A stretch of 64,000 nucleotides of DNA, taken from Tridacna crocea (Eukaryota > Mollusca > Bivalvia > Cardiida > Cardiidae). The notes beneath the pieces were generated by a model. The model searched no databases, had not been told where the DNA came from, and saw only the letters and a list, made by a program, of their open reading frames with translations. A program made the position numbers and the translations under genes. The stretch spans positions 46,454,672 to 46,518,671 of the forward strand of contig OX031063.1 in NCBI GenBank assembly GCA_943736015.1, given 5' to 3'. Position 1 is the stretch's first letter, and the number at the start of each line of letters is the position of its first letter. Positions 1,325 through 44,200 of the stretch are shown here, piece after piece.

Positions 1325-3032
1325 ATGCTCCCCGAAGGACGAGCATATAATCGCCGCTTCGTCCGTCCGTCCGTCCGTCTGTCCGTCCGTCCGAAGCCAT
1401 ATCTCCAGAACCCTTGGACCAAATAGGATAAAACTTCATATATGAACTCCTTTTGGTAATGCACCGATGTATCTTTCCCGGTTTTTCAATTTGACCCCGT
1501 GTCATGGAAAAAAGGGGCTAAATGCAAAATTGTAATTTTTACTAATATCTCATTCAGTTTTTGTCAAAATTTCACGAAACTTCATGGTTATTTGTTTATG
1601 GAAAGTTTCAGCATGTGCCCTTGCTATTTTTATGCTAGGCGTTTTTTAAGTTGACGTTCTGTCATAGAAAATGGAGGTTTCTTGCAAAATTCCATTTTTT
1701 ACTAATGCATGTATATCCGTCCGTCCGTCCGAAGCCATATCTCCAGAACCCTTGGACCAAATAGGATAAAACTTCATATCTGAACTCCTTTTGGTAATGC
1801 ACCGATGTATCTTTCCCGGTTTTTCAATTTGACCCCGTGTCATGGAAAAAAGGGGCTTAATGCAAAATTGCAATTTTTACTAATATCTCATTTAGTTTTT
1901 GTCAAAATTTCATGAAACTTCATGGTTATATTGTTTATGGAAAGTTTCAGCATGTGCCCTTGCTATTTTTATGATAGGCGTTTTTTTAGTTGACGTTCTG
2001 TCATGGAAAAAGGGCGTTTCCAATTATTACTAATACCTCATTCAGTTTTGAAGAAAATTTTATTAAACTTCATGGTTATATTGTTTTTTAAGTTTCACCA
2101 TGTCCTCTTGTTTTTTTATCTATGTGTTTTTCAATTTGACCCTCTGTCATGAAAAAAGGGGGTTTCTTGTAAAATGCCAAGGAAAAGGCGGCCTGAATGC
2201 AAAATTGCAATTTTTACTAATATCTCGTTCAGCTTTTGTCGAAATTTCATAAAACTTCATGGTTATATCTTGTTTTAGAAGTTTCAACATGTGCCCTTGT
2301 TATTTTCCAGCTGTGGATTATTAATGCGCAAATACCTCTTACCTGGTTTCTCAATTTGAGGCTGCATCACGGAAAAAGGGGACTTCATGAAAAAAATTGT
2401 TTTTCACTAGTATCTCCTACATCAGTGCTCAAAACTTTATGAAATTTCAAATCTGAACTTGTTGGAACGTTGCCCAGGCACCTCTTTTCCGGGTTCTCAA
2501 TTACAGGCTTCGTCGCAGAAAAAGGGGGCTTCATGTAATTATTTTTCCGCTCTAATATCTCTTACATTAGGTCTCAAAAGTTCATGAATTTTCAAATCTG
2601 AGCTCGTTGGAACATTGCCCAGATACCTCTTACCCGGTTTCTCAATTTCAGGCTGCGGCACGAAAACAGGGGGCTTCATGTAAAAAATCGTTTTATGTAA
2701 TATTTACTGTATGACTGCTCAAAATTTTATGATATTTCGAATTTTGAATTATTATTCAAAAATGCAACAAACCACACACCCGTTGTATTTATTCCAATGA
2801 TGCAATATTGTCTTATGGGAAAAGGGGGCTTAAAAGGGGCTTAGTGGGCTTTTTATCCTCTACAAGTTTGTGTTGACTATCTCTAAGATAGTAATTGCCT
2901 TTTCACTTCAATTTTTGGGGAGCATGAACAGGTCTTTTTAGAATAAAAGAAGTGAATTTATATCAATTTCATACATTTTGTAAAAAAAACACTTGTTCGG
3001 GGAGCATAACCCGTCTCTGACAGCTCTTGTTT
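1325..3032 (+). mobile_element. Rolling-circle-like array element, family I
   Basis: It begins GCTCCCCGAAGGACGAGC, continues with a (CCGT)n stretch, and has internal repeats built around TTTTTACTAATATCTCATTC. It ends with the hairpin CCGTC-TCT-GACAG followed directly by CTCTTGTTT. The first ~330 bases after the microsatellite are duplicated (from ~1,378 and again from ~1,716). A second copy is at 21,456-22,687. The architecture (5' block, microsatellite, central tandem repeats, 3' hairpin) is that of Helentron-associated elements; the class is inferred. Confidence 0.7.
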
Positions 3033-3089
3033 TTATGTTACTTAGCGTCAAAAACGGCGCAAGAGCAAATTTCTTAAACCTTTATATAG

Positions 3090-4622
3090 AAACAAGAGGA
3101 CCATGATGGTCCTATATCACTCACCTGAGTACCAAGCAGTATAGGTCATGAATAAAGAGAAATACCAAACATCAAGATTCAAGGCCAAAATATACTGAAA
3201 CAAGAGCAGAAAATTATTGCAATTTGACTTGAGACTTTGAAGTTCCGTTCCGGACAAGCAAGAAATACTGTAAAAATGAATATCAAAGTGGAATTACTCA
3301 AAATCCGCGCTAGGTAGAGTTAATGTTCTTGCGCACTGTACTCTGTAATACTGCAACAAACATGCATACCAAGTATGAAGTCGTTCTGACTTGAAATGAC
3401 AAACTTATATTCCGGACAGGCACTATAATGCAAAAATGACATTCAAAGGGAAATAACTCAAATACAGCTCAAGATAGATTTACAATTCTTGTGCACAGCA
3501 CTTCCGAGTATTGCAACAAACGAAATTTCAAGTAATTTCTACTTAGCTTTGCTCTGGACAAGCAAAAAATTCTAAAAAATGAAGGTGAAAAGGGGAATAA
3601 CTCAAAATTTGTGCTAGGAAGAGTTATGATTCTTGTGCAATGTACTTTTTTTTATTTTTCAACAATCATGCGTATCAAATTTGAAGATGTGCAGGCTGTA
3701 GATGACGAAGTTATATTCCAGACGAGCAGAAATGCTGTCAAATGATGATCAAAGGGAAATAACCAGTGGGCAGTACAAGGTAGAGTTACAGTTTTTTCAC
3801 ACTGCACGCTGTATTATTGCAACAAACACATATACCAAGTATCAAGTCAATCGGACTTGAGATGACAAAGTTATACTCCGGACTAAGAACTATTCTAAAG
3901 ACTGTATAATTCAAGGGCAAATAACTCCAGCTTTTCCGGTCTGATTACTACCATAATCGAACTCATCCGGGATTATACAGTCATATATATTTTGAACAAG
4001 ATAGGTACTGTTTGGTTGATATTTGTACATGCCAGAGCGTAAACAAAGTCAAACATAGCAATTTTTCTAATTCAAGGGCAAATAACTCCAGTTGTTCAGG
4101 TCCGATCACATCCATCATTGAACTCATCCAAAATCTTATATTCATATATATTTTACCAAGTTTGGTAACGAATGCTTTATAATTGTAGATGCTAGAGTGT
4201 AAACAAAGTCAAATATAGTATTTTTTTTTCTATTTCAAGAGCAAATAACTCCAGTCGTTCTGGTCCGATTACACCCATAATCAAACACATCCGAGATCTT
4301 ATATATATATATTGACCAAGTATGTTGCTGATTCGTTGATATTTGTAGATGCTAGAGTGTAAACTAAGTCAAATATAGCAATTTTTCTAATTCAAGGGCT
4401 AATGTTCTTGTCCGATTACATTCATAATCGAAGTCATCCGAGATCTTATGGTCATATATATTTTGACCAAGTTTGGTGCTGACCGGTTGATATTTGTAGA
4501 TGCTAGAGTGTAAACAAAGAAATGTGAACGGATGACGGCTGGATGGATGGACAACGGATGCAGACGGACGGTGAGTGATCACAATAGCTCACTCTGAACA
4601 CTTCCTGCTCAGGTGAGCTAAT
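3090..4622 (-). mobile_element. Rolling-circle-like array element, family II
   Basis: Reverse orientation: the left edge is AAACAAGAG plus the hairpin GGACCATGATGGTCC. The middle has units of ~115-170 bases, each with an 'AAATAACTC' core, and the right edge is CTCAGGTGAGCT. The right-hand portion repeats GATGCTAGAGTGTAAAC about every 130 bases. Confidence 0.7.
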
Positions 4623-4879
4623 ACGAAAGAGAATGGGTCAGTAACTTTAAATCAAAATGGACGCAACTTCCCATTTTGCTACAGCAATTAAAATATATTG
4701 AAGTGGAGATATTACAGAATACTTCGAGATATTGTAGACTCTAATCATTTTAGAAGAAAAACGTGTTTTAGTCGATCAAAAATATTCCCCTTCTGAAATT
4801 CTATACGACAGGCCGTTATCGGAAATCCTTTGGGACCAGATTATCGATAAATTCCAAGGGGAGCAATTCTTGCTCGACC
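4623..4879. other. Unique-looking non-coding gap
   Basis: Between the array element and the LINE fragment. No motif or frame is recognised. Confidence 0.5.
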
Positions 4880-5870
4880 CGCAGCATGAAGTTGGGAATG
4901 GTTGTATTTTTTGTAAAGAAAAGCCTTCGGCCAATAATACAGCATGTTTACTGCATTTTTAACAATACCAAAAACGTCTTGTTGAGAATGACAGATATAA
5001 GTTTTGTAACTTTTTTTTACGGTAACTATATTTCTACATTTCATCAGGTTAAAAAGGATCTTTTCGTACATTGTACCATGAAAATAGTAAAGTGTTACTG
5101 TTTCTTTCTGCCTCAAAAAGTGAACAATGGGAAAAAAGAATGATATTCATTTTCAATTATTAAAAGATCATCGTGAAATAAACCATGACGACATATGCTA
5201 TCTTCTCTTGCAATATCAAAACGGCGTCCAAGTTGTATGTTTAAACTTGAACATCTGAATCCTGCAAAGGCCCTCCTTAAATTCAGAGACACATCTACAC
5301 AAAGATATCCATTATTGGTTTAATTGTGATGAAATGTTTGTAAAAATCGCTACGAGATGAACTCTGGATATTTGTTTGGAGATTCTGAAGAGAACAATCT
5401 AAAATTCTAGATTCAAATAATATAACAAAAACATCAACGTCACCTACATCTTGGAAGACCCATGCATAACCATACGCATATGAAAAAAGTAAATTTTTAA
5501 CCCTTGTTGCCCTGTTAATTCTTCCTGAATCACCATGTGCTTTTAGAAAATTGAAACACTGTCTCGGGTAGCTTTAATTCTCCATATGCAAAAAAATTTT
5601 GCACCAATATTTTACAGATTTAGTGGTGTAGGTGACACATAAAGGCAGTCTTCCACATTCAGCTAACACAACTCTATTGTTTACTGTATGGTTTATGCCT
5701 AAGAAACCTATACAAAATTGTATTTGGACGTTTTCAACAATATCAGAATATTCAAATCCACATATCTAAGCCCAAAATGTAAGTATGGGAAGCACCATAG
5801 TATCCAACAACTTAAAATATTCTTTGTGTAAAAATGACCAAAATTATACCTAAAGGTGGCCCTTTAGATT
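4880..5870 (-). mobile_element. Old LINE 3' fragment (post-RT region and zinc knuckle)
   Basis: The - strand in several frames gives the tail region found behind the RT in many invertebrate LINEs. Visible blocks are GRLPLCV..TTKSVKYWCKN, a CSSLNIQLGRRFDIARE block followed by C..H and IENEYHS, and, near the end, YEKILFNLMKCRNIVTVKK. Multiple stops and frame changes interrupt it. No RT core remains. The call rests on recalled family blocks, not on an alignment. Confidence 0.55.
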
Positions 5871-6345
5871 TTGGGACGAAAATAAAAAAAAACACCTATA
5901 CTCCCAATTCCTTTTAATTTTCATTCATAAAATCCCAATAGTAGAAAGCCATCCGACAACAAGAGAAATTAAGAGATTTACTACGGCCAAGGTCAACTTC
6001 GACTGAAAACACGTTCTATTTTTACATGAGCAAACCACTCATTTTCATTCCGGAAATACACATACGACGCTTCAAACATAGCGTCCGAACATGACAATGG
6101 AAAATAATTAATAATTTCATGTACATGTTTGTTATGTTATGGAATTTAAGCGTCATTAGTCACTTGCCAGTCACTTTACATTCCCACACTGATTCTTTTT
6201 TTTTTTTTTTTTTAATTTTTGGCGCGAAATCTAAAAATACCATCAGAGGCTACGTAGCCTTTTGAGGGAACACCATCTTTTTTTTTGTAATTTTATGATT
6301 CTTAATCATTGATTATTTGTATTGTTTTTTCATTGGCCGATGATA
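5871..6345. other. Non-coding, AT-rich
   Basis: Contains T-runs near 6,197-6,215 and 6,278-6,287. No gene or repeat is recognised. Confidence 0.5.
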
Positions 6346-6347
6346 TT

Positions 6348-8914: not shown

Positions 8915-9376
8915 GATACCGTTACTATAAATAGAACTTTAAGGATTCCTTCTGTATCGTATTTAGTAAGGAAAGGTGTGTAACGAAAAGAGTTTTTTCT
9001 CCCGCACCCTGACCTTCGAAAGTTTCAAACGGCTCTTGCAATTAAGCAATAGTTCTCGTCTAAAAGATTTCAAACGCTTCCACTAGTCTTTTCCGGACTG
9101 CTATGCACTGAAGTCACACGATTTATAATCCGGCAGCGAATAATGTTTTTAATTCCACGCATCAATCGAATTTTTTTTTTTTTTGTGATTTATTACTGAA
9201 ATCATTGAATGAATATATTTTCTAATTATAAGTTGTCTTTTTTTATCCAATCCAGTGTCACGATTTTCATCTTCCATTTCGCATATGACAGGGGACGGGG
9301 GTAAATTTGTTTCCGATTTGGTTGCACACCTTTTCATACTATATACTATACAGATAGAATCCCCATTTTGCTACTT
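8915..9376. other. Spacer between inverted-repeat arm and LINE
   Basis: A T-run lies near 9,171-9,184. There is a short - strand frame (9,149-9,337) with no family resemblance. Nothing else is seen. Confidence 0.45.
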
Positions 9377-9389
9377 CTAGTAATAAAAA

Positions 9390-12300
9390 TATACGATACG
9401 TCCAACACCACTGCTAATTGTATTTCTATTGCCCATCTTAACATACGCAGTATACGTAATAAGATAGAATTCATATCTGACTTTATGTCCGACTTTGATA
9501 TATTGTGTTTCTCTGAAAGTCACTTAGATCGCACAGTTTTAGATGCAGACTTGACTTTTGATACACTTGAAAGCAGCATATACAGACAGGATATGACATC
9601 ACACTCGGGTGGGCTCATTGCATATGTCTCAAATTCCCTTTTTTCTAAACGAAGATATGACTTGGAGCACAATTTACTTCATTCAATGTGGATTGAAGTC
9701 AAATATCGGTCAACATCCTTTCTTCTTTGTACTGTTTATCGTTCTCCTAACACAACTGTTGCATTCTGGGACTATTTCAATATTTCCTTAGAAAAAGCTC
9801 TTGAGTCTAATAAACGAATAGTTATTGTAGGAGACCTAAACCAAGACTTGCTCGATCCGACTGAATTCCATCTCAGAAATGTTATATCTATGAACAATCT
9901 CACGAATGTCATCACAAAGCCTACTCGTGTCACAACACACTCATCAACACTACTTGACCCTATTCTAGTCTCCAACTTTATCAACGTTACTCACGCTGAC
10001 ACCTTAGACATTGACAGTATCATTAGTGACCATAAAGCTACTCTTGTTTTATTTAGGTTTGACAGTACCCCTTTAACATGCTTGAAAAGAACGGTCTGGA
10101 TTTATAACCGAGCTGATTTTATTGAACTTAACCAAATGATACACGTAAAAAATTGGAACCCATTTTTGTCTTGTGATATAAACGAAGCATGTGAATATTT
10201 TACTTCTACCCTATTAGAAATGATGTCAGTATGTAAACCATCAAAAGAAGTCACCATCAGACCCAATGACAGACCGTGGTATGACTCTGAAATAAGGCGA
10301 CTTAGTAGACAACGCGACAGACTTCAGAAAATCATGACGAAACGTGGACAAACTTCGGATTGGCTTAGATATAAAAACATAAGAAATAAAGTAAATAATT
10401 TGAAAAAACATGCCAAACAAAGATACTTTAGAAATCTTGATGAAACAATTTCAAACTCACGCATCAGTGACCCCAAAAAATATTGGAAATATCTCCGCAG
10501 TCTGGTCAACATGAACAAGAAATCTGACCTTATTCCAATTCTTAAATCTAATAGTAATAACGTCGAAATATTTCATTATACAGACTTGGAGAAGGCAGAA
10601 TGCTTAAACGAATATTTCTCATCTATTTCTACTGTAGATGAGTCTAACGCTTGTTTGCCACCTTTTCATCCTAAGACTTGTAATATTCTGATTATAATTG
10701 GCATCACTAGACAACAAATAGAAGACATAATCAGCACTTTAGAAGTAAACAAAGCAGCAAGCCCTGATTTAATCAGTCATAAATTACTAAAAAATATTAA
10801 ACAGAGTATATCCAAACCCTTACAAATATTATTTAATAAGTCGTTACAAGATCAAACTTTCCCTCAAAAATGGAAACATTCACTAGTTAATCCACTTTTC
10901 AAAAAGGGAGATAAATCTTTAGCGTGCAATTATCGACCAATATCTCTTTTAAGTTGTGTCAGTAAACTGATGCAACCACCTACACTCAAATCATTTACTC
11001 TACGAAAAGCAATCTGGTTTCTTGCCGGGTCATTCAACAGTCCATCAACTGATCGAAATATACCACCAAATCGTTTCTGCTTTTGATGCAAAACAAAACC
11101 TGTTATGGTATTTTGCGACATATCGAAGGCATTTGATAGAGTCTGGCATAGAGGTATTATTTTTAAACTTCGTCAACATGGCATCGATGGTCCCCTTCTT
11201 CAATGGTTTAAAAATTATTTGTCCAATCGTCAACAATCTGTTATTATTAGAACTGCCAGATCTAAAACAACATCAATAAATGCAGGCGTTCCTCAAGGAT
11301 CGGTTCTCGGGCCATTACTTTTCTTTGTCAACGTGAATGATATTTCAGACAATCTTTTAAGTATATCTCGTCTGTTTGCAGATGACACCTCACTAGCTTG
11401 TACTTCCACTCAAATTGAAGATATTGAGGGTATTTTAAATCATGACCTGCTTATTATATCCCAATGGGCAAAACAATGGCTGGTATCATTTAATCCCTCA
11501 AAAACAGTAGCTATGCACTTCACAAATACTAATGTTCAGCCACCAGATTTATTATTTAACAATGTTCCGATTCAGTTTGTTACGAATCATAAACACCTTG
11601 GACTAACTCGAAGTAGTAATGGTAAATGGCGTGAACATATTAATAATATAACCCAGTCTTCAAACAAGATCCTGGGAATTATGAGATCTTTAAAATTTAG
11701 GCTAAAGAGAGATTCTCTCAACCAAATATATATATCTTTTTGCGACCACTTCTCGAATACTCCTCAGTAGTCTGGGATAACTGTACCATGTCGGAAAAGG
11801 ATCGTTTGGAAAAAATTCAAATGAGGCCGCAAGAATAGTAACCGGTATTACAAGATCAGCTTCTACTCTTGACTTGTACAAAGAAATCGGTTGGTTAACG
11901 TTAGATAATAGGCGTAAATATCAGAAACTTGTACTTATTTATAAAATAGTCAACGGTCAGACTCCGCAATACTTAAACGATATCTTTCCTTTAAATGTTA
12001 ACGCAAGAACAAATTACTTACTCCGCAATGCTAACGATATCGATTTAGTTGCTTGTCGAACCGAATTGATGACAAGTCTTTTATTCCATCGGCAGTTACT
12101 CTATGGAACGAACTCTCCGACGATATTAAATCCTTGCAATCTTTGTCGCAATTTAAATTTCGTATCCTACAGACCTTTCATGTTTCTGATGTTCCTAAAC
12201 ACTTTTTCGTCGGTAAACGCCATCTCTGTTGTACATACAAGAATTCGTAACAGATGCAGCAATCTGAACTTTGACCTTTTCTCGAATTATACATCTCAAA

Positions 12301-12527
12301 ATGCAAGCTGTAAGTGCGGTTACGATCAAGAAGATGCTGAACATTATTTCTTCAGATGTACACAATACGCAATACAGAGAGATAATCTCTTTCAAACTTT
12401 ACGTCGATTTCATCCATTAAATATCAACATTCTATTGTATGGATCTGATAATCTCAGTTTCAAAGACAACTCATTGATATTTAGGACTGTGCAAACTTAT
12501 ATAACAGATACAGGACGATTCAAGTAA
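9390..12527 (+). pseudogene. LINE endonuclease-reverse transcriptase, frame-shifted
   Basis: The longest open piece (9390-11086) carries the endonuclease, nearly whole, and the RT fingers. A second piece (11105-11770) carries the RT palm with SGVPQG-type and FADDT motifs. A third (11874-12527) carries the thumb and the zinc knuckle. It would normally be one ORF2-type protein. About six frame changes separate the pieces. There is no gag-like ORF1, because the copy is 5' truncated. Confidence 0.88.
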
Positions 12528-15479: not shown

Positions 15480-16237
15480 TAAAATTACCAAAGGTAGATT
15501 ATTAAACCTTTCATCATCTTAAAAGCATGTAGAAATCGTGTATGACATGTAAATCTTATCGTGCGTGGCAGCCATTTTAAGTGTTTTCGGGAATGTAAAC
15601 AACTCGAGTAACAGATGAAATGCACGGTTTCCTCTTGTGTTCTGCATTTAAATTGAAAATATTTGTATTTCAAACGAAGGGTTATTAAAAACACAAGCAT
15701 TTTGTATGTTTGAATCCTAGTTTTGTGCTCTATTTGCAAAATTATGAGAGTTCAAACTTGCGCACAAACTCTGTGCCAGAGGAAAAATCGCCTATGGGGA
15801 CAGTTATCTGTACTATGTCAGTCCTTTGGTCTCAAGACCCTAATGGTGTGTAAAACACCTTTGACTTACATAGAGCCGGTCTACATATTCAGAGCCCTTC
15901 TTTATTTCTATCATTGTTTGCCTTATTTCTGTTCAGTTCTTTACCAGCAGTGAATATAACATTTCAAGACATAAATTCATGCTTTTAGGACAGCAAGACT
16001 CTCTTTTTTTGCCATTTAAACGGCAATAATAGACTGAATATAGGTCCGTGACGTATTATTTCGGCTACGGTCGACCCACGCCACAAATGATTCAGACAAC
16101 ATCGTACATTTCTTACAACTTTACATACTGTAGACAACACGTTGAAAGACCAGATTATTGTATGACATTCTCCTTTTTTCAATTTCAATGACATAAAAAT
16201 ACATGATTACAAATAATGACGAGCTCATCTGTTTTTG
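15480..16237. other. Non-coding
   Basis: Several short frames have no family resemblance. No repeat is recognised. Confidence 0.45.
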
Positions 16238-17397
16238 TTAACTCACCTGAGTACAACGTGCTCAAGGGGAGCTTTTAGGATCACCAGGTGTCCGTCGTGC
16301 GTCAGTGCGTCGTTCGTCGTGCGTCGTCAACAAATCTTTAAACACCAACTCCTCCTAAACTGGCCGATTTGGACCAAACTTGGCTGGAATGTTCCTTGGG
16401 TGGTCCTCTTTAAAAACTGTTCACAGAATTTGATTCCATCAAAAACTCTGGTTGCCATGGCAACCAAATGGAATTTTTTAGGGAATTCTTTAAAAATTTT
16501 CTCCTCTGAAACCGCTGGTCAGATTTTGAAATAATTTCACAGATATGTTCCTTGAGTGACCCTTTTCAAAAAGTGTTCGAAAATTTTGATCCATCAAAAA
16601 AATGTGGCTCTGGTGAATGGGGGCTACTTGCACCATACAGAAATGAAGTTCTTCTTCTTTGAAACCGCTGATCAGGTTTTCAAATAATTTCACAGAAATG
16701 TTCCTTGGGTCACCCTTTTCAAAAATGGTCGCAAAATTTTGATCCGTCAAGAAATGGCTTTGGTGAATGGGGGCTACTTGCACCATACGGAAATTAAGAA
16801 ATTCTTAAAAACTCTTCTTCTCTGAAACCGCTGGTCTGAATTTGAAATAATTTGACGGGATGTTCCTTGGATGACCCTTTTTAAACTTGTTTGTGAAATT
16901 TTGATCCATCAAGAAACCTGGTCTGGGGAATGGGGGCTTCTTGCACTATATGGCCATGAAGAAATTCTTTAAAATTCTTCTTCTCTGAAACGGCTGATCA
17001 AATTTTGAAATAATCTCACAGAAATGTTCATTTGGTAACCCTTTTCAAAAATTGTTTGCAAAATGTGGATTTGTCTAGAAACATGGCTCTGATGAACGGG
17101 GGCTACTTGCACTATTTGGCCATGAAGAAATTCTTTTTCTCTGAAACTGCTATCAGATTTTGAAATAATTTCACAGAAATGTTTCTTGGCTAACCCTTTT
17201 TAAAAAAGTGCTCTGAAATTTTGATTCATCAAAAAACATGGCTCTGATGACTGTGGGCTATTTACACTATACAGACATGAAGAAATTCTTAAAAATTCTT
17301 CTCCTCTGATATGGCTGATTACATTTTGAAAAAAAATGGCTATTGTTCTCTTAGAAATTCAGGTGAGCGGTCCAGGGCCATCTTTGCCCTCTTGTTT
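16238..17397 (+). mobile_element. Rolling-circle-like array element, family II
   Basis: The 5' end is ACTCACCTGAG...GTGCTCAAGG.GAGCT, a subterminal inverted repeat. Then come a GTCGTGCGTC microsatellite and about six units of ~160 bases (TTCTCTGAAACCGCTG, TTTCACAGAAATGTTCC). The 3' end is the hairpin region GGGCCATCTTTGCCC then CTCTTGTTT. Frames inside it are repeat shadows. Confidence 0.75.
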
Positions 17398-17439
17398 GTT
17401 TTTCAGTCGACATTTTCTGAAACGGAAGACCAACATATT

Positions 17440-18112
17440 TTCTAATCGGAGCCATTTGCTCTGAACATGAAGTTTCCTACCCGTGAGAACAAACAAGGTT
17501 TTTCTAAGATTTAGCCCTGTGAGCTACTTTTCGACCCCTCAATACCCAATTTCATGATTGTCTTAACTATCATCAAGACAGATATTATCATCAAGACAGA
17601 TATTCTGACATATCTTTAACAGCCCCTAGCCGAAATTGTGGCCTCAGAAAAAGTGCACAAAATGAATTTCTCGGATTTAGTCCTATGACCTACTTTTTGA
17701 CTTGGCGTGACCAAATTTTAAACTTGTATAAGATATTACGGCGGCAAAAATATTTCCAATGTCTATGAGTAACTGATAAAGTGACATGACCAATTTTCAA
17801 ACTTTTCCAAGATATTATCAAGACAAACAACCTGACCAAGTTTCAAGCGTATCAGGCTCATAAAAGTGGTCTATAAAGTGCACACAAGCTTCTTTAAATA
17901 TTTAGCCCACAATTTCGAGATTGTCCGCGATGTCATCAAGACAAAAAAATCCAACCAAGTTTTATGAATAGCCTACCTGACACTGTGGTCTATAGAGTGC
18001 AAACGAGGTAAATGTTGACGTATGGATGAGAGATGACGGACGACAGACACAGCACGATCACAAAAGCTCACCATGAGCACTTCTTGCTCAGGTGAACCAA
18101 AAATTGAATGAA
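17440..18112 (-). mobile_element. Family II-related array element, reverse
   Basis: Units of ~120 bases contain GATATTATCAAGACAAAC and 'AAGTTTCAAG'. The right end is GATCACAAAAGCTCACCATG...CTCAGGTGA, the inverted 5' end of family II. The left edge is unclear. It faces the + strand copy ending at 17,397. Confidence 0.65.
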
Positions 18113-18650
18113 AAATCCAATGCCACAAACGACACAAAAGCCACAAGCACGAGGAGTAAAATGCATTATGTAATCCTTCAGAACATACTGGTTTGAATAC
18201 ACTGATAGGACCACGTCATGTGGTATCACCTTACGTAAATCTTAGCCAGTATAAGTTATTGATCATATATTTCATACAAATGAAAAATACTGATCAAGAC
18301 CTAACTTACAGTTTGTCCTACTTTCTAATTGACTGGCAGCTACGGATAGGTAGAAAGAGCCATACAAGAACGACAGAAAGCTCTGTTCCCAACGCCTCTT
18401 TGATTTGAGGGTGTATTTGAGTCGTAATACGTCGACGTCACTTTTATTTTGTCCTAGAACTAGTTTCAGGACAATTGTCTGAGGTCATGCTCTTTTAAGC
18501 ACTAGATTCAGCAATGGATGCATGCTTTGAGCTAGTTGACGACGAGATATTTTATAAAGAATTTATTTTCCCCGACACAGGCGACGTCTCGCGAACGCAA
18601 CTGTGTATAATAAACACCTAAGACCTGGATTCATTTACCTCTAAAGTTGC
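18113..18650. other. Non-coding
   Basis: No gene or repeat is recognised. Confidence 0.45.
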
Positions 18651-18980
18651 AGGATCACTATCCAGGATCTGTTTCATTTTTAACCCATACAAGATAAGCT
18701 ATCTTTTTTACGGCCCTGAGGCAGAAGCATGTGCAAACATTGCGGGTGAAGGAGAAATTGCTTGTAAGGAGCAATTTTTCCTTTTCTGCAATGTTTTCTT
18801 TCTTCCACAGACAAATCCTACAAATTGGGCAAGTGCGTATGAGGCCACAATTGAAATATAATCTATTTTCAGCCAGAGAATACAACAGAAAAGCAATAAC
18901 ACCTTTATGTCGATTTCATTTCTCTGTGTCCATAATGTGGGTCAACAAACCGGGTCAAAGCAAACAAGATTTTGTTGTAT
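18650..18980. repeat. Degenerate family-A hairpin MITE
   Basis: The core at 18,738-18,800 pairs AACATTGCGGGTGAAGGAG with CCTTTTCTGCAATGTTTT around a diverged centre. Confidence 0.5.
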
Positions 18981-20250
18981 AGTGTCCAAATTCCTTATTT
19001 AAGAACAAAGTAAGTTTTAGAACAGATTTAAGTTACAGTACAAAGTCCTGTCAAGTGACAGTACAAATCAAAACTATAGCTTTCCAAGTGACAGTACAAA
19101 ATTCTGTTCGTAGACATGCTGGAATTTCGTCGGTTAATCGCTTTTAAGGTCACAACTTGGAACTTGTTGATGAAAAGATAAAGCAGACACATCGACAGAC
19201 CTTTTTATCATAGAAAGAACTTTCTCGTGTGCGCTAAAGCGAAAATTTTGCTATTTTTTGTAGTCGAAAATCATTTCAATTTTTTCACATCAAGATGATC
19301 AAGACATTCTTATTGCTAGAAGGAGGTTGCATATTGCACGATCAGGTGCCTGGCATGTTTACTATAAATCAAAAATACAAGTGGATGGAAAGAATTCAAT
19401 CAAATATAAAAAAAAAAAATGCAAAAAATAATAACTTCACTTACCGTGTAAACACAAATTTTCTAGAATCAAGTGACATTTCGCCACTGTACAGACTCCC
19501 AAGTGACATACAATCTCAAACACTGTACACTTCCGGTCCTACACTGTGATATCTTCATCTTTCGATTAATATTAGACATTGTACTATTTCAATTACTATT
19601 TGTCATATAGGTGATTGCAGGTTTTACATGATATTTTAAGTATATATATGCAGGATTGCTCTCCCTTTATGCCTGTGCATGCTACTTTTCTTTTCGATTC
19701 CACATTAGCGGATTTTAGTGACTCAGACATCACACCCAGTTCTTGAGGATCGAATACGTTATTGAATTGCATCAATCATCCAGAAATGGTTTACTTTGTA
19801 ATAGTTCTATCTTGTACAGGTAGATGAGATTAACAATAATATTTAAGCAAGCTTGCTTACCTAACTGAGCTTTGGTTAGAGAAGGCATACGAAGACGTGG
19901 CTACTTTCGTTATCAACTTGACCCTCGGTTTTTGGAAAAAAAACAAAATAACCAGGCTGTCCTTCGGATATCTGTGCCATATGAGGGAGTACGCATAAAG
20001 TACGAAATGGCAGTATTATGGGAAAATGGGCGCAATAAAAAAGAAAATATGCGGTGGAAATGAATTATCTATTCCTTTCGGAATAAGGTAAGAGTAGGTC
20101 ATTTCAAACGAGCTTATTTTTACTCATTAATCTTTAATAAGGTGCATATTCAGGGAAAAAGAAAAACAAAAACTTGTTTTAGTTCTGATAAAATTGTATT
20201 TCTGGAGACATTGTTTTCCATTATACAAATTATCTCTTGTGGTGACATGG
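18981..20250. other. Non-coding
   Basis: A CAAGTGACAGTACAAA motif recurs three times at 19,033-19,105. No gene is recognised. A family-A tail fragment lies at 20,255-20,325. Confidence 0.45.
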
Positions 20251-20875: not shown

Positions 20876-23278
20876 ACTTTTTATACGCCCGAAGGGTCGT
20901 CAGTCCGTCCGTCCGTCCGTTAGCAATTTCTTGTGTGCGCAAATCCTCCTACAGTTTCCATCGGAATTATTTGAAACTTGCCACAATGAATCTCCATGAT
21001 GTGTAGTTATGCACCTGGGTCTTAGAATTTGGATCGCTGTTTGCGTTCTAAAATTATCTGCCCCTGATTTCTGAAATAACCAACTTTACACTTTAAATTT
21101 TTGTTCAGGCTATAACTTCCATACTATAAAAGGTATCAACTTGAAACTACATGCACTGGTTGAACACATTATGGAGAAGTGCAGTGCACATGAACCATAA
21201 CTCTGCCACCGTTATTTTTCGAGTTACTGCCCTTTGTTAATTTTCAGTTTGAATTTTTGTCCAGGCCATAACTTCTAAACTATAAAAGCTATTAACTTGG
21301 AGCTTGATACACTAATAGAACCCATTATGGAGAAGCGCACTGCACATGAACCATAACTCTGCCACTTTTGTTTTTTTAGTTATTGCCCTTTGTTAATTTT
21401 CAGTTTGAATTTTTGTCCGTTATTTTTTGAGTTACTGCCCTTTGTTAACTTTCAGTTCCGTCTGTCCGTCCGTCCGTCCGAAGCCATTTCTCCACAACCC
21501 TTGGACCAAATTGGATAAAACTTTACATATGAACTCCTTAGGGTAAGGTGCCGACATGTCTTTCCCGGTTTTTTAATTTGACCCCGTGTCATGGAAAAAA
21601 GGGGCTTAATGCAAAATTGCAATTTTTACTAATATCTCATTCAGTTTTTGTCAAAATATCATGAAACTTCATGGTTATATTGTTTATGGAAAGTTTCAGC
21701 GTGTGCCCTTGCTATTTTTAATCTAGGCGTTTTTTAAGTTGATGTTCTGTCATGGAAAAAGGGGGTTCTTGCAAAATTCCAATTTTTACTAATATCTCAT
21801 TCAGTTTTGGTCAAAATTTCTTTAAACTTTATGGTTATATTGTTTTTTTTTTTTTTTAAGTTTCACCATGTGCTCTTGTTTCTTTATCTGTGTTTTTCAA
21901 TTTGACCATCTGTCATGGAAAAAAGGGGGTTTCTTGTAAAATGCCAAGAAAAAAGGGGCTTTAATGCAAAATTGCAATTTTTACTAATATCTCGTTCAGT
22001 TTTTGTCAAACTTTCATGAAGCTTCATGGTTATATCTTGTTTTACAAGTTTCAGCATGTGCCCTTGTTATTTGTCAATCTATGAATTATTAATGTGCAAA
22101 TACCTCTATCCTGGTTTCTCAATTTGAGGCTGCATCACGGAAAAAGGTGACTTCATGGAAAAAAATGTTTTTCACTAGCATCTCCTAAATCAGTGCACAA
22201 AACTTTGTGAAATTTCAAATCCGAACTTGTTGGAACGATGCCCAGGTACCTCTCTTCCGGTTTATGAATTTCAGGCTGTGTCACGGAAAAAGGGAGCTTC
22301 ATGTAAGAAATCATCTTATATAATATTTACTACATGACTGCTCAAAATTTTATGAAATTTCAAATTTTGAATTATTATTAAGAAATGCCACATACCACAC
22401 ACCCGTTGTATTTATTTCAATGATGCAATATTGTCTTATGGGAAAAGGGGGCTTAAAGGGGGCTTAGTTGGCTTATTGTTCTCTACAAGTTTGTGTTGGC
22501 AATCTCTAAGAGAGTAATTGCCTTTTCTCTTCAATTTTTTTTTTTTTTTCTTTTTTTTTTTGAGGGGGGGGGGGGGGGGCATGAACAGGTCCTTTAAGGA
22601 TAAAAGAAGTGAATTTATATCAATTTCATATATTTTATGACAAGCACTTGTTCGGGGAGCATAACCCGTCTCTGACGGCTCTTGTTTTTTGAGTTATTGC
22701 ATTTTGTTAATTTTCAGTTTGAAATTTTGTCCAGGCCATAACTTCCAAACGATGAAAGCTATTAACTTGGAACTTGATACACTGATAGAACCCATTATGG
22801 AGAAGTGCACTGCGCCTGAATAATAACTCTGCCACCTTTATTATTTGAGTTATTGCTGTTTGTTAATTTTCAGTTTGAATTTTTATAAAGACCATAACTT
22901 CCTAACTTCAAAATTTATCATCTTGAAACTTCAAAGACTAATAGAACACATTATGAAGAAGTGCAATGCACAAGAACCATAACTCTGCCATCCTTCCTTC
23001 TGAGTTATTGCCCTTTTCACTTTGAATTTACGTCTGGGCCATAATTTCTAAAATATAAAAGATATGATCTGGGACCTTCAAAGACTGATAGAACACCTTG
23101 TGGATAAGAGCAATTCACAAAATTTCTTACTCTGTTACCCTTATTTTTTTACTTATTGCCCTTTAATATTTTTCACATATGGAGAATAACTACTCTTCAT
23201 TCATGGCCCATCCATCAATGCAACTCATTTCACTGACAAGCCCCTTCGGGCGTTTATGCGCCGCTCTGCGAAGCTCTT
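20876..23278 (+). mobile_element. Rolling-circle-like array element, family III
   Basis: The 5' block is TATACGCCCGAAGGGTCG, then (GTCC)n, then TGCGCAAATCCTCCTACAG. About 160-base units follow (AGTTATTGCCCTTTGTTAA, CAGGCCATAACTTCC, AACTCTGCCAC). The 3' end is GCCCCTTCGGGCG...GCGAAG then CTCTTGT. A family I copy is nested inside (21,456-22,687). Confidence 0.72.
21456..22687 (+). mobile_element. Family I array element nested in family III
   Basis: It starts with the (CCGT)n block and GAAGCCATTTCTCCAC, so its first ~60 bases are missing compared with the 1.3-kb copy. It ends CCGTC-TCT-GACGG then CTCTTGTTT at 22,679-22,687. A G-run lies at ~22,564-22,580. Family III units resume directly after it. 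Confidence 0.75.
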
Positions 23279-23284
23279 GTACCA

Positions 23285-24165
23285 AATTATCAATTGTATC
23301 ATCAAAGTAAACATTCTGACCAACTTTCAGGAGTTTTGAATCTTAGATGTGGCCTCTAGATCGTACACAAGATTTTTCTAAGATTTTACCTTGTGAAATA
23401 GTTTTTGACACGACATGACCTATTTTTAACTCGTCCAAGATATCATCCAAACAAACATTCTGACCACGTTTCAAGAGTTTTGGAATGGAAATGTGCCCTC
23501 GAGAGCATACACAAGATTTTCCTAAGATCTGACTGATTGATCTAGTTTTTGACCCCACATAGCCCATTTTTCAAACTCGTCCGAGGTATCATCAGGACAA
23601 ACATTCTGACCATTTTTCAAGAGTGTAGGACTAAAAATGTGGCCTCTAAAGCATACACAAGGTTTTTCTAAGATTTGATCTTGTGACCTAGTTTTTGACC
23701 CGACATAACCCATTTTCGACCTCGTCCGAGATATCATCAAGACAAACATTCTGACCAACTTTTCAAATGTATTGGACCTAAAATGTGGCCTCGAGAGCGT
23801 ACACAATTTTTTTTCTAAAATTTGACCTAGTTTTTGACCCGACGTGAATGATTTTCAAACTCGTTCAAAGTATTATCAGGCAAACACTCTATTTTTCAGG
23901 AGTATTGGACAGAAAAAGTGGACTCTAGAGCGTACACAATATTTTTTCAAAGATTTGACCCAGTTTTTGACCCGACATAACCAAATTTCAAACTCGTCCG
24001 AGATTTTTCTGTGACAGACATTCTGACTAAGTTACATGAGTATCGGATTGAAAATGTAGCTTCTAGAGCGTATAAAAGGTAAAAGTTGACGACGTACGAC
24101 GGGCGCCGGACACAGCACAATCACAAAAGCTCAGCATGAGCACTTTGTGCTCAGGTGAGGTAAAA
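23285..24165 (-). mobile_element. Family II-related array element, reverse
   Basis: About seven units of ~120 bases (GTCCGAGATATCATCAAGAC, ACATTCTGACCA, TGTGGCCTC). The right end is ATCACAAAAGCTCAGCATG...CTCAGGTGA. It abuts the end of the family III element. Open frames inside it are shadows of the units. Confidence 0.68.
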
Positions 24166-26640: not shown

Positions 26641-27604
26641 CGTGTATGCTGGTACACCTGCTATTTTCGTTTTCCTTTCCACAGTCGCGAGATATTTGTT
26701 TCCGTCGTGCGTCGTCTGTCGCCCATAAATTTCTTTAAACATCTACTTCTCCTAAACCATTGGGCCAATCTTGATGAAACTTGGCAGGGATGTTTTTTTT
26801 TTTTTTTTTTTTGGGGGGGGGGGGGGTGAAGTTCTACCAAAGCTGTTCAAGTGATTGAATTCCACTCATAACTCTGGTTGTCATGGCCACCAAAAGGGAA
26901 GAAATAGCAAAATCTTTGAAAATCTCTTAAACAAGAAGGCGTAGAGCTTCGATATTTGCTATGTAGCATTTCCTAGTGGACTTCTACCAAGTTTGTTCAT
27001 ATGATACCTCTGGGGTCAACACTCGCCCTGCTCCGAGAAGGTTACAAGATCGAAACATAGGAACAAAGAAGGAAAACTATAAAATTCTTCTTCTCTGAAA
27101 CTGGAAGGCATAGACCTTTGGTTTTTGTTATGTAACATCTCCTAGTGAACTTCTACCAAGTATGTACATGTGATGCCCCTAGGCTCAAAACTCACCACAC
27201 CCTGAGGGTCACAAGTTCGAAACATAAGAACAAAGAAGGAAATTTTTAAAATTCGTCTCCTCTAAATTTGGAAGAAGTAGAACTTTGATATTTTACATGT
27301 AGCATCTTTAAATGGACCTCTCTACCAAGTTTGATTATACGATGCCCCTGGGATCTAAACTAACCCCGCCTCGGAGGTCACAAGTTTGAACACGGAAACA
27401 AAGAAAGAAAACTTTAGAAAAATTCTTCTTCTCTGAAACTAGATAGCGTAGAGCTTTGATACTTGGTATAAAGCATCTCCTAGCTGACTTCTACTAAGTT
27501 TGTACATATGATGCCCCTGAGGTCAAAAATGGCCCCGCCCCGGGGTCACAGGTTCGAACAAAGTGAGAAAACTTTAATTCTTCTTTGCTGAAACTTGAAG
27601 GCAT

Positions 27605-28000
27605 AGAACTTTGATTTTTAGCTCTGCTGCCTGAAAGCCAGCAGAACTTATGTCATAACGTGGTTTCCGTCGTCCGACTGTACGTCCGTCTGAGCGTCTG
27701 TTAGTCTTTGTCTTGTCGACACGATAAAGCCTGCATTTATGATCAGATTTTTCTTGACATTTGCACAATTTGTTTATCTTATCAATACCGAACAGGCTGG
27801 GAAAAGTATCCATTCAAGTTGAAAATTTTCAATTCTTGTTAACGCGATGAATTCAGCAATTTTTGTTTTAATCTCTGTATTTGCATTGTTCTTTTGCCAT
27901 TTTGAATCATACAGAAAATTAATAACTCATGCTACAAAATAGGCAATATCTCTTCAAGTAGAGCAATTCAGGCCATCAAGGGCCTCTGTTCATATGGAGC
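27605..28000 (+). mobile_element. Short array-class element nested in the family II copy
   Basis: It begins AGCTCTGCTGCCTGAAAGCC, then TCCGTCGTCCGACTGTACG, and ends with the hairpin GGCCATCAAGGGCC then TCTGTT. A truncated relative of this 3' end (GGCCCTCAGGGACCTCTAGTT-like) is at ~7,430-7,453. Confidence 0.6.
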
Positions 28001-28469
28001 ATCTCCTAGTTGACCTCTGACAATTTTGTTGATATAATACCCCAGGGGGTCAAAACTGGCCCTGCCCAGGGGTGTAACATGTTCGAACATAAGAACAAAG
28101 AAGGAAAATTGTTCTTCTCTAAAACTAGACGGAGTAGATCTTTGATAGTTCGTATGTAAAATCTTCTAGTGGATTTCTACCAAGTTTCTTCATAGGATGC
28201 CCCTGTGGCCAAACTGGCCCCGCCCCGGGGGATCACAAATTTGAGCATGGGAACAATTTTTTTTAATTCCTCTTCTCTGATAGTAGAAGGCTTAGAGCTT
28301 TGATATTTGGTATGTAGCATCTCCTAGTGGACGTCTTCGAAGTTTCTTCATATGATGCCCCTGAGGTCAAAACTTGTCCCGTCCCGGGGGTCACAAGTTC
28401 GAAACATAGCCACATAGCAGAAAAACTTTAAAATTCTTCTTCTCTGAAACTGAAAGGAGTAGCTTGGGT

Positions 28470-28690
28470 GGTTGGTTTTATTGGGGTTTAACGCCACTTT
28501 AACAGCTATGGTCATATCATGGCGGTCGATGATGCACATGTGTTTCCTGGCTTACTCACACCAGGTGCCAACACAACTTTCTTTCCAAAGCCACCGATTA
28601 CTTTTCTCACATGTTTCAGCAGAGGTAAGAGGCGAAAGTACGCCACAAGAGAGTTCACCTCAACCGAATATCAAGGGAGGAGCAGAGCTG
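28470..28690 (-). mobile_element. SINE copy nested in a tandem-array element
   Basis: Same body as the SINE at 15.2 kb (GGTTTAACGCCACTTTAACA, ATCATGGCGGTCGATG). The tRNA head is missing or too decayed. It interrupts the ~160-bp tandem units of the surrounding rolling-circle-like element, so it arrived later. Confidence 0.7.
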
Positions 28691-29522
28691 TGATAATTGT
28701 TATGAAGCAAGTCCTAGTAGACCTCTACCAAGTTTATTTAAATGATGCCCATTAGGTCAAAACTGGTCCCATCCTGGGGTTACAAGATCGAAACACAGTA
28801 ACAAAAAAGGAATACTTTCAAATTCTTCACCTCAAAAACGGGAAGGTGTAGAGCTTTAATATTTGATATGTATCATCTTCTAGTAAGCCTCGACCTATTT
28901 TGTTAAAATGATGCCTCTGAGATCAAAACTAGCCTATCCCCGGGCGTCACAAGTTCAAACAAAGGAGAAAAACTATAAAATTCTTCTTTGCTGAAACTGG
29001 AAGGCTTAGAGCTTTGATGTTTGCTTTGTAGTGAACCTATTCTAAGTGTGTTAGCTCACCTGACCACAACATGTTCAGTGAATTCAAATTTGGGTCAACC
29101 CGGGTCATAAACTAGGTCACTAAATTAAATTAAAGAAGTACCTTGTAGGCACTCTTGAGGCCACTTTTTTTGGTCAATTGACTTGAAAAGAAGTCAGAAT
29201 GTTTGTCTCGATAAAATATCACATGAGTGTGAATTTGGATCAACCTAGAACATAAAGTTAACTAGGTTACTTGGTCAGATTAAAGAAATTGTACTCTAGG
29301 GCTTTCTAGAGGCCACATTTGTTGTTCAATTGGTTTGTAAAATTGGTAAAAATGTTACTCTTGATGAAATCTAAAATGAGTTCAAAATTGGGTCACACTG
29401 TGGGCACTTTAGAGGCCAGATTTATTTCTCAAAAGACTTGAAATTTGTTCAGCATGTTTGTCTTGATGAAATATTGGATGAGATTGGATTTGGGTCACTA
29501 AGTCATCATGGCCCTCTTGTTT

Positions 29523-37884: not shown

Positions 37885-37975
37885 CCAAACCCTATGGTGT
37901 GGGTACTCATTAGAATCGTCTCAAAAGAATCGTCTCATTGAGACGATTCTAATGGGTACCCATAACATAGGGTTT
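37885..37975. repeat. Palindrome 2 upstream of sarcoglycan exon 1
   Basis: Close relative of palindrome 1, with AAACCCTATGGTGTGGGTAC inverted as GGTACCCATAACATAGGGTTT-like sequence. An AGAATCGTCTCA stretch is duplicated on the left of the centre. It ends ~150 bases before the exon 1 ATG. Confidence 0.85.
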
Positions 37976-38128
37976 AGTGAAAAATTACTAACTAATATTT
38001 TATTTATTTTTTATCAAAATCGTTGGAGCTCTGTATATCTATATCCTATTTTCATATATGTCCATCTCATACCTCTTTTTCAATATATGTATTTGTCTTT
38101 GCTTTATTTTCAGTTATCTTCAGATGCC

Positions 38129-38296
38129 ATGGGTCAGGGAAAGTCTACAGATTTTACTGACCCGGGCTATCAGCCGGCGGGGATCTACGGTTGGAGAAAA
38201 CAGTGTTTATACGCCACAGTTCTCTTTATATTGATACTGGTCATCATGAACCTGGCACTGACGGCTTGGATACTTCGTGTGCTCGACTTTAATATC
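38129..38296 (+). CDS. Sarcoglycan coding exon 1
   Basis: Codes for residues 1-56: the short cytoplasmic tail and the whole transmembrane helix, ending ...RVLDFNI. Acceptors TTTTCAG (ends 38113) or TTCAG (ends 38123) precede the ATG. The donor GTAAGA follows at 38297. Phase 0. Confidence 0.93.
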
Positions 38297-41200: not shown

Positions 41201-44200
41201 TCGAGTTCCTCGTAGGTCGAAAAGTGGATGGCGGAAACAGGATTCCGTAGTCTTTCACTTTCTTTTCAATTTGGCCTTTGTTTACATTTGCAGCAGATAA
41301 ATGTTCTCGTATAAATTACAGAATGCTTTGGTTAAATGTCCTAGAACATCGTAATTCGCTGAAATATCTTCATCTCGAGTGATATTGGCACTGTACAAAT
41401 CTTGAAGACTCTACATTATGTAGAGTAGTCCTTCAATATGCGAAAAATTCGCATATACTACTACATCTTAGTATAAATCTTCGACCAATGGACTTCCCAG
41501 GTCGTCAAATGTCGATACTTTTAACTACCTTTGGATTAACCTCGGTTGCTCGCGTGAATATCTCACAAGATGTGGTGCCTGCTAGGCAGATCCCACATCG
41601 GGCTGAACATTCTTTGCATCAGATCTTTGCAATCACTGTCCGCTTGACCTTCAAATTCTGTTCACAATGTCCATTAACTCTTCACCAAACGACAAACTTT
41701 TAGACTTGTCCAAATTGAAAGCATTTGTAGACGACATAATAAATTTGTCTCAAAAATTGAAACTTGACTATAAAAGAGTAGAAAACAATGTGGGAAAAGG
41801 AGAAAGTGCTGGTTACCAGCATTTTCTCCTTTTCTCACAATGTTTTCAGAAGGCGTCTTCCTCTTGGTCGTAAAATGCAGGGATTGTTTGGTAATGGGTT
41901 AACCTAAATATGAATCAGTTGAAACGTTTATAGTATTGTTGTAATGTATATTTTTAACCAGGCAGGATTGCATTTCGGAAATATAAAGTTACACAGCGGC
42001 GGTATTTACATCCAAGACACTGCAGAAGTTGTTAAAACGGTTTATGTGTCCAAGTTAGAAAGTAAGCAGGTGAGTGTCTTGCTTTTTAGCTCCACTGGCC
42101 GAAGGTCAGCGGGCTTATTCATGGCCCAGTGTCCGTCGTGCGTCCGTCCGCCCGTGCGTGCGTGCGTGCGTGCGTGCGTGAACTTTTATTTCAAACATCT
42201 TCTCTGAAACTACCCATCCAATTTTGATGAAACTTCACATAAATTATCCTGCCATGGTCCTCTTCAGAATGCCTTGAAAGAATTTGATTCCTTCAAAAAC
42301 TCTTGTTGCCATGACAACAAAACTGAAAAAAAAATCAAAATTTTTGAAAATCTTCTTGTCTGAAACGATAAGGCCTAGGGCTACCAAATTTGGTATGTAG
42401 CTTTATCTGATGGACCTTTACCAAGTTCCTTCAAATAATAGCCATGGGGTCAAAATTGGACCTGCCCCGGGGGTCACAAGTTTTACATGGGCATATATAG
42501 AGAAAACATTAAAATCCTTCCGGTACCTAGCCATAGGGCCTTTGGGTACCAAATTTGGCATGTATCTTCATCAAGTGGTTGTCTACCATGAGAGCCCAAA
42601 TCTTAGCCCTGGAGTCAAATTTGGCCCAGCCCTGGGAGTCACAAGTTTTATATGGGCTTAGATAGGGAAAACTTTAAAAATCTCGAACCAAGCCATAGGG
42701 CCTAGAGCTACTCAATTTGGCATCTAGCTTTATCAAGTAGTTGTCTACCAAGGGTACCAAAATCATAGCCCTGGGATTAAATTTGGCCCCATCTTGGTGG
42801 TCACAAGTTGTACATGGCCTCATATTGGGAAAACTATAAGAATTTACTTGTACCCAGGACTACCAAATTTTGCATGTAGCTTTGTATAGTGGGCCTCTAC
42901 CAGGCGGGCCCTAATTATAGCCTTGTGGTCAAGTTTGTTCCCAAACCAGGGGTCACAAGTTTCACATGGGTTTTTTTGTGGTGAAAGCTTTTTAAGTTAT
43001 CTTGTTACTAAACATAATAAAGACTAGGGCCACTAAATTTAGCCTTGTTTCACGGGTCTCATGCTTTCTGGGCCTTTTATTGACAAAACTTTGAAAATCT
43101 TCTTGTTTATAAGCACACATTCTAGACATGTAAAATTTGGTATGGGGCTTAATCTTTCGGACTTCCACCAGGATTCAAGTAACTATAGCTTTGGGTCAAA
43201 AATGGCTTTTCACGGGGGTCATAACTTTAGAAATTCTGTATGTTTTCAAGTTTGAAACTAATTGGCCAAATATTGTAGTGTTTGGCTTGTAGTGTCTTTA
43301 CTTATTAGCCAGTGAAGCAATACAGGGCCATCATGGCCCTCTTGTTTTACTAAGAAAAGCTTCTTTTTTTAACAATTTTATTTGACTAGCTGTAATAGTA
43401 GTGGTCAGTTTCATTCCCTGTGCACTGATTTATTATACCAGGCAAACTTTTGATTTTTAGCTCGGATGTTTTCGAAGGTATTTTGGCCTCATGGCTGATA
43501 CGAGACGACACTTTCCGCAAATGTCCGACGGTCCTTTTTCGCGTTTTGCAGGTTTTTTTATGATTTCAGGGAAGACCATTAGAGATTTTGTCTGGACGGG
43601 GTGTTGTGTTTCAGAGACAAGACAAAGACAACATATCTACAACATTACAGATAGGTATGAATGCCGAGCCTAGTAGCTCACTCTGTAGAGGACAAATTTG
43701 ATACCAGGGGACGTGTGTTCGATTACCAGGCCAGGACGAATTCTTTCAAAGGTTTGATGTAGTCATTGCAACAGGATTTGTTCCTCTGGCATAGCCAAAC
43801 ATATTGGAAGAAGGAATTCTTGCGCAAAGACTAATTTAAATCGTCGGAAAGAATTTGGCCCAGTAAAGAATCGAACCACTGACCCCTTTGATTTCAAGTC
43901 CTTTTTTTAAGGACATCCAGGGTCGGCTTGGTAAAACTAGAGAGATAAGATACATGCCTCATACCCACAACGTTATAAATGAGAAAAGGGGGTGTGATGC
44001 ATCCCCGTAATGCATGTCATGCCACTCATCGCATATTTTTATTTCTTTACCACTTGGTTCAGCCAATCAGACGTTGTGTTATTTTCAAATTTAGAGAATC
44101 TTGGGGAATAAGACTTAGATTATCCTTATGAATGGTAGGTGAATACCGACCCTGAGAGCAAATGTCAAGGCCGTATTCGTCGTGTTTGCGTACGTGGATG

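Follow-up and report, generated by a model that had tools for sequence, protein, structure and literature searches.

Array-bearing elements sharing a 3′ octamer in a Tridacna crocea genome are very probably non-autonomous Helentrons descended from array-bearing Helentrons

The array-bearing element families found in a 64,000-nt stretch of DNA (C8:46454672-46518671 of a 1.05-Gb, 31-contig genome; hereafter the window) can be identified with high confidence as non-autonomous Helentrons (HINEs, Helitron2-type) that end in the octamer CTCTTGTT and that probably derive from Helentrons that themselves bear arrays. For two families, C and D, the HINEs are connected with autonomous Helentrons, and what is new in this genome is that the octamer is constant while the subterminal repeat pair differs between Helentron lineages. 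A Helentron-associated identity had been proposed in a first-pass annotation of this DNA, and it is upheld by the subterminal pairs, the microsatellite, the array, insertion at TT and the existence of Rep-PIF1-endonuclease relatives with the same kind of ends. The elements are listed in Table 1.

Table 1. Helentron-related elements and arrays in the window (window coordinates)
Element	Position	Strand	Features
HINE family A	1325-3031	+	5′ ATGCTCCCCGAA; GTCC microsatellite; arrays; 3′ TTCGGGGAGCAT; CTCTTGTT at 3024-3031; paralogous empty sites
HINE family D	3091-4619	-	AGCTCACCTGAGC / CTCAGGTGAG; hairpin GGACCATCATGGTCC; CTCTTGTT at 3091-3098 (minus)
HINE family C	16240-17396	+	AACTCACCTGA / TCAGGTGAGC; C array; CTCTTGTT at 17389-17396; empty sites L066, L067
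G-type element hosting nested C	17397-18098	-	type I 5′ module ~18098; part of larger repeated unit
HINE family E	20883-23281	+	ATACGCCCGAAGGG / CCCCTTCGGGCGT; 156-bp array; CTCTTGT(A); interrupted by nested A copy
A copy without 5′ end, inside E	21459-22686	+	CTCTTGTT at 22679-22686
G-type array	23282-24161	-	type I 5′ module ~24161; abuts E 3′ end
Arrays 26701-27619 and 27993-29032	26701-29032	+	best pieces 79% and 83% like the H19 5′-arm array
Short G-type element	29053-29521	+	type I 5′ module; CTCTTGTT at 29514-29521; 3′ hairpin half lost
HINE family B	42088-43346	+	AGCTCCACTGGC / GCCAGTGAAGC; CGTG microsatellite; array; hairpin GGGCCATCATGGCCC; CTCTTGTT at 43339-43346
Solo type I 5′ module	44580-44753	+	86% like the H19 5′ end
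C-type array fragment	63352-63644	-	best piece 80% like H17

The common 3′ terminus that had been noticed among the array elements is confirmed by window and genome counts of the 9-mer CTCTTGTTT and of exact 3′ modules. CTCTTGTTT occurs 10 times in the 64,000 nt against 1.43 expected (100 shuffles, 0/100 of which reached 10), and 44,042 times genome-wide, where the reversed word occurs 14,260 times. Six of the ten window sites are element ends by reading (3024, 3090 on the minus strand, 17389, 22679, 29514 and 43339), another three fall within arrays of A or D (2105, 21873 and, on the minus strand, 3198) and one within a LINE-like ORF (10041). The exact 3′ module GGGCCATCATGGCCCTCTTGTTT has 2,804 genomic copies, the exact family A 3′ end has 788 and the end of an additional family, K, counted as CTCTTGTT, has 2,101, with a reversed control of 0 in each case. 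The conserved unit is the octamer CTCTTGTT, and the ninth base, T, is mostly target-derived. Hairpin motifs searched without requiring the octamer were followed by CTCTTGTT in 10/11 cases and by CTCTTGTC in 1/11, with T as the ninth base in 8/11; this set was drawn from the window, the Rep loci and further DNA retrieved without using the octamer, includes B, C and D of the window (3) and Helentron ends (5), and was scored at the offset picked for best fit. Family E ends in the window with CTCTTGT (23274-23280) followed by A, while other E-type ends read CTCTTGTTT (L128) or CTCTTGTTA (L008). Element ends coincide with CTCTTGTT, as had been expected, and this octamer is the true 3′ end of these elements.

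In a non-random sample consisting of the first 52 CTCTTGTTT places listed on contig C1, 18 were classed by eye as element ends: 12 with a type I repeat (resembling TCAGGTGAGC and in some cases decayed), two of family B, two of K, one of E and one with a hairpin and no type I repeat. The other 34 places were array interiors, other repeats or unclassed sequence. Hence, the bare 9-mer is not diagnostic. If the 18/52 share holds, there would be about 15,000 exact ends genome-wide.

The 5′ layout described earlier, a subterminal inverted repeat followed by a microsatellite, recurs across families as paired repeats, microsatellite and array. In each family the 5′ subterminal repeat is the reverse complement of the 3′ subterminal repeat (near-perfectly in C and B), which lies ~24-28 nt before the element end. 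Both repeats are present in A, B, C, D and E and in the autonomous copies L009, H10, H16, H17 and H19; K HINEs are represented by their 3′ end only. C, D and G share one subterminal pair, which is that of one Helentron lineage (H type), while the K pair is that of the other lineage (L009) and the E pair is a close variant of it. The earlier description of the families as unrelated in sequence needs qualification, given this sharing by C, D and G and the distant resemblance (about 67-76%) of the B array to that of H19. Folding of the 5′ hairpin was supported to different degrees (z = -6.4 in H10, -4.7 in L009, -4.2 in D, -2.3 in C and -1.9 in A) and was weak in B (z = -1.2) and E (z = -0.9). 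At the 3′ end, DNA folding scores lay between z = -1.8 and z = -2.5 for B, D, H10 and the E-type end of L128, and were -0.9, -0.2 and +0.7 for A, C and K, respectively. A strict hairpin finder recovered 7/36 of the first surveyed CTCTTGTTT sites and 225/4,000 random positions. The terminus had been read as a hairpin followed by a shared word; the octamer is indeed the common part, but the hairpin is not universal, folding giving no support for it in A, C and K. Likewise, the similar end proposed at 29,522 does carry CTCTTGTT, but with only half a hairpin.

Paralogous copies without the insertion (empty sites) were used to read the insertion sites. Families A and D lie 59 bp apart within one copy of a high-copy repeat, and their joined 257-bp flanks found a full-length match at 40/40 scored places (from 484 candidates). 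Four A/D empty sites were read; with A placed at 1325-3031 and D at 4619-3091, neither join contains a gap in any of them. Of 40 matches to the host repeat of C, 31 carry the junction (the window copy included), eight have the right flank only and one has the left part only; two of the eight were fetched (L066 and L067), and both are empty sites, that is, host-repeat copies without C. The site in A, C and D is TT|A...CTCTTG(TT)|T, with the bases that are ambiguous at the join limited to TT in A and D and amounting to TTGTT (5 nt) in C. The empty sites of A and D thus show no duplicated target other than the TT common to flank and terminus, and C is compatible with this. The joined flanks of family B matched only themselves in the genome, without an empty site, and flank searches found none for E, H17 or H19. 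These ends differ from those of canonical Helitrons (Helitron1), which begin with 5′ TC, end with 3′ CTRR and insert between A and T; here the elements run from A to CTCTTGTT at TT|T. Tail-to-tail composites, with C/G, E/G and A/D as designed pairs, were also considered. The C/G pair was rejected because the two fetched right-flank-only matches are empty sites and C is nested, having been copied with its host repeat, and the A/D pair because A and D inserted independently into the same copy of a dispersed repeat. An all-against-all BLAST was dominated by a ~230-bp dispersed repeat.

Elements encoding Rep and helicase with the same 3′ end, which the first-pass annotation had named as a check, are present in the genome (four H-type elements of 14.3-16.7 kb, and L009). 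The Helitron_like_N profile had 32 matches in this genome and matched 0/14 control genomes. Of the 15 Rep loci examined, six (H10, H13, H16, H17, H19 and L009) have downstream, in coding orientation, an octamer end taken as their own, 6.0-7.7 kb from the Rep match in the five H loci and 13.9 kb from it in L009. All five Rep loci with frames >2,200 aa are among these six: H10, H16, H17, H19 and L009 have open frames of 2,266-2,728 aa and measure 16,664, 14,319, 14,706, 15,333 and 21,325 bp, respectively. H13 has a 490-aa frame and a 3′ end, with no 5′ end in the 6 kb fetched. Helitron_like_N, PIF1 and Exo_endo_phos domains were found in H10, H17 and L009 (pieces scanned separately; the H17 Exo_endo_phos match is just below the cut-off), and the Rep, PIF1 and endonuclease parts of H16 and H19 were assigned by homology. 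The Helentron-type Rep motif 2, FYRVEFQQRGSPHIHM, occurs in L009, L010, L016, L017 and L019 and agrees with the motif as given in the consulted text of PMC4067079. H10, H16, H17 and H19 begin with AGCTCACCTGAGC, preceded by TTTTT, whereas L009 begins with ATACGCCCGTC, ends with GACGGGCGTAT...CTCTTGTT and carries a nested type I 5′ module at 19162. In a Rep tree built from this genome's copies only, the five H loci form one eight-row clade with L014, L018 and L024, and L009 falls outside it; L009 is 43-44% identical to H10, H16, H17 and H19 in the Rep region and ~37% in the helicase-endonuclease part. Among the autonomous copies, homology is lost 0-3 bases beyond the octamer (having run for 795 bp in H13-H17, 104 bp in H10-H19 and ~40 bp in others), and at the 5′ side it starts 5-7 bases before the 5′ A, within the T run. 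Moreover, the joined flanks of H10 span the join at 83-88% identity at 38/40 scored places (from 2,903 candidates), and the remaining two places are the flanks of H10 itself; in the four empty places that were read, H10 has ~4 extra T at the join. Given these 38 matches that run through the join, the 16.7-kb H10 unit most likely moved as a whole.

The remaining nine Rep loci, mostly broken copies and mostly viewed only over Rep+5 to +8.6 kb, showed no end of their own in the fetched DNA. In eight of the 15 (L011, L012, L014, L015, L020, L021, L024 and L036) the octamer in coding orientation is absent from the fetched DNA, and in L018 the only octamer downstream belongs to an A copy; this A-type end, 11 kb behind the Rep locus, was rejected as the L018 end. 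Three of the nine (L014, L018 and L024) share the H-copy Rep clade. A second type I end (CTCTTGTC) lies behind H16 and a second CTCTTGTTT behind H17; the nearer ends were adopted. The 3′ end of L009 lies beyond the nested type I element and could belong to a neighbouring K copy, against which stand the lack of any other K 5′ end on that strand (1,386/21,325 bases being unseen) and the 156-bp array that precedes the end.

In the autonomous copies the arrays follow directly after the 5′ module with its microsatellite, oriented as in the short elements, with only ~1.4 array units kept in H16. Family D matches H10 at 46/50 and 43/45 positions of the two ends and at ~77-84% in the array. Family C matches the 5′ end of H16 at 49/52 and the 3′ end of H17 at 41/45 positions, and its array is 82-88% like that of H17. 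The arrays at 26701-29032 have their counterpart at the same place in H19. Similarity between the E and L009 arrays is about 64-73%, and the exact ends of E are in none of the five autonomous copies (H10, H16, H17, H19 and L009). The A and G arrays have no match in these five, and family A has no autonomous partner among the Rep loci examined. The proposal that the arrays are cargo is contradicted for C (by H17) and D (by H10): the same arrays occupy the same place in autonomous elements, so they are not cargo picked up by the short elements. It is also unlikely for E. Since the tandem arrays of several families are also found within the long coding elements, they look inherited rather than picked up.

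The findings were weighed against other readings of the shared terminus. It is improbable that every family is mobilised in trans by a single Helentron transposase that reads only hairpin plus CTCTTGTT, with the arrays as captured cargo. This reading would account for the octamer and TT|A...CTCTTG(TT)|T site common to A, C and D, for the octamer in other families and for the absence of a partner for A among the loci examined. However, there are two autonomous lineages, with Rep regions ~43% identical, each with its own subterminal pair that matches particular families, which does not support the idea of one transposase for all, and arrays sit inside the autonomous elements. Cross-mobilisation between the lineages may occur. 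A further reading, that unrelated elements acquired the same 3′ end by convergence or by recombination between their 3′ modules, draws on B and some type I copies, the 3′ modules of which share the GGGCCATCATGGCCC hairpin and octamer despite different subterminal repeats. In K and L009, by contrast, the octamer is all that is shared: their spacer differs and a hairpin lacks support. Common ancestry or constraint therefore fits better, and we regard such exchange as unlikely.

Far less credible still is an origin as cut-and-paste MITEs with target duplications, in which CTCTTGTT would be partly duplicated target (TTGTT lies on both sides of C). For C alone, a 5-bp duplication of TTGTT would explain the empty site just as well, but A and D share only TT, which excludes longer duplications for these two families, and in the ends read the octamer is constant regardless of the left flank. 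The ends are asymmetric, and the coding elements that match them specify Rep, helicase and endonuclease; the domain scan of six pieces reported no cut-and-paste transposase family.

Descent from array-bearing Helentrons remains the preferred explanation, and a rolling-circle scheme can be outlined for it. Rep would nick at the element 5′ end and the helicase would peel the strand up to the 3′ end, where pairing of the 3′ and 5′ subterminal repeats, together with the octamer, would mark the stop; the released strand would then be joined into TT. The short array-bearing families would be internal-deletion derivatives of array-bearing Helentrons. Since two Helentron lineages with differing subterminal repeats have the same octamer, it is probably a lineage-wide terminator, the subterminal pair giving family identity. 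In L009, array units lie both at 81-1161 (6.9 units) and just before the 3′ end at 20929-21258 (2.1 units), which suggests that recombination could delete the coding block. We tentatively raise the further possibility that the tandem array is a standing 5′-arm module, possibly functional (e.g., transposase-binding or strand-initiating repeats), that HINEs are born from array-bearing Helentrons and that the octamer is a terminator shared by this genome's Helentron lineages and open to cross-use. If so, recombination between flanking array units, as in L009, would remove the coding part and yield a HINE in one step. Because autonomous Helentrons share these ends and arrays, and one of them (H10) has dozens of matching empty places, an intrinsic array origin becomes directly testable. 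For this genome, a paired subterminal repeat plus CTCTTGTT offers a search signature.

Comparable systems have been described in bivalves and elsewhere. Literature text that contains CTCTTGT or ACAAGAG together with Helitron comprised only papers unrelated by their listings. Within literature on bivalve or mollusc Helentrons and on Helitron2, mostly open-access main-text passages (including PMC11136912 and PMC12628747), neither this terminus nor array-bearing autonomous Helentrons as partners of bivalve HINEs are reported. In its main-text passages, PMC7492417 describes HINEs as dispersing satellite-like arrays in bivalves, leaves open whether the arrays in oyster were captured or are intrinsic, and states that the link of Crassostrea gigas HINEs to autonomous Helentrons "remains unresolved." As described there, Cg_HINE resembles the present families in its left module with subTIR, complementary IR and microsatellite (several GTCY-like), its 140-180 bp satellite-like array, its right module with subTIR and 3′ palindrome, its oligo-T sites without duplication and the occurrence of families unrelated in all modules. 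No 3′ octamer is reported in those passages, and no autonomous partner could be related to Cg_HINE there, whereas here autonomous copies have the same ends and arrays. Helentrons, HINEs and DINE-1 elements, in the consulted text of Thomas et al. (2014, PMC4067079), share with ours the Rep motif ExQxRGSPHxH with a preceding F/Y..R, the C-terminal endonuclease, subTIRs, the TT target, a variable number of T at the ends, non-autonomous partners with common ends and, in some non-autonomous copies, tandem repeats. Satellite-like arrays in autonomous copies, as found here, are not a feature described in that text. Helitron2 elements with ATIRs, in the consulted text of Bao and Jurka (2013, PMC3627910), are alike in the 5′-ATIR within a 5′ hairpin, the 3′-ATIR 20-30 bp before the end and, in some families, insertion beside T runs without duplication; here, in contrast, the octamer is conserved across ATIR types and the 3′ hairpin is not universal. 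ATIR pairing was suggested there to set the replication end point, a suggestion that the 5′ hairpin and 5′/3′ complementarity of our elements fit. Finally, the bivalve pearl, CvE, MgE and DTC84 elements, likened here by their description in PMC7492417 only, have ~160-bp central repeats and a comparable architecture.

The stretch at 15,718-18,932, which includes C, a family of non-autonomous Helentrons (HINEs), belongs to a bigger repeated unit, and the C junction is kept in 31 of 40 matches, the window copy counted. The host repeat, carrying the nested C together with an element of G (the array elements with type I ends), has therefore itself been multiplied. The dispersed repeat that hosts the HINE families A and D (see table) was read in four copies, which appeared nearly identical among themselves.

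At 23,281-23,282 the 3′ end of the HINE E adjoins a G array on the minus strand; its left flank is not G, and a search with the flanks of E gave no empty site, that is, no paralogous flank copy without the insertion. Within E lies an A copy (21,459-22,686) that lacks the 5′ end and begins inside the microsatellite, with, as judged by eye, approximately 40 bp of the E array apparently present on either side of it.

Among the coding frames of the window, the BTB-like one is probably a host gene. The dispersed repeat of approximately 230 bp was also found in the Helentron stretches examined.

Repeats and coding frames in the window, and an autonomous Helentron elsewhere in the genome
Feature	Position	Strand	Remarks
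Dispersed repeat hosting A and D	1200-1324, 3032-3090, 4620-4720		484 first-look candidates
Non-LTR retrotransposon-like frames: endonuclease, broken reverse transcriptase	9305-12527		Named by eye
Non-LTR retrotransposon-like frame: second reverse transcriptase	48106-49881	minus	Named by eye
478-aa frame resembling BTB-domain protein	54272-55708	minus	By eye
Dispersed repeat, ~230 bp	41674-41902, 52667-52861, 60945-61178, 62179-62358	both	
Minisatellite, 24-bp unit, ~30 copies	45508-46203		Higher-order period 184 bp
L009 Helentron (L130/L009/L039/L132)	C6:61078959-61100283		

On other contigs, a second type of Rep was found at L020, L022, L023, L025, L026, L028, L029, and L032, with the motif RGMVHWH or similar where the other type has RGSPHIH. 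Two of these copies are identical across the Rep match, and the octamer that ends HINEs and autonomous Helentrons in this genome was absent from the single downstream stretch read (L044). A type I 5′ module is nested close to the 3′ end of the autonomous L009 Helentron, which also carries a C-like array there.
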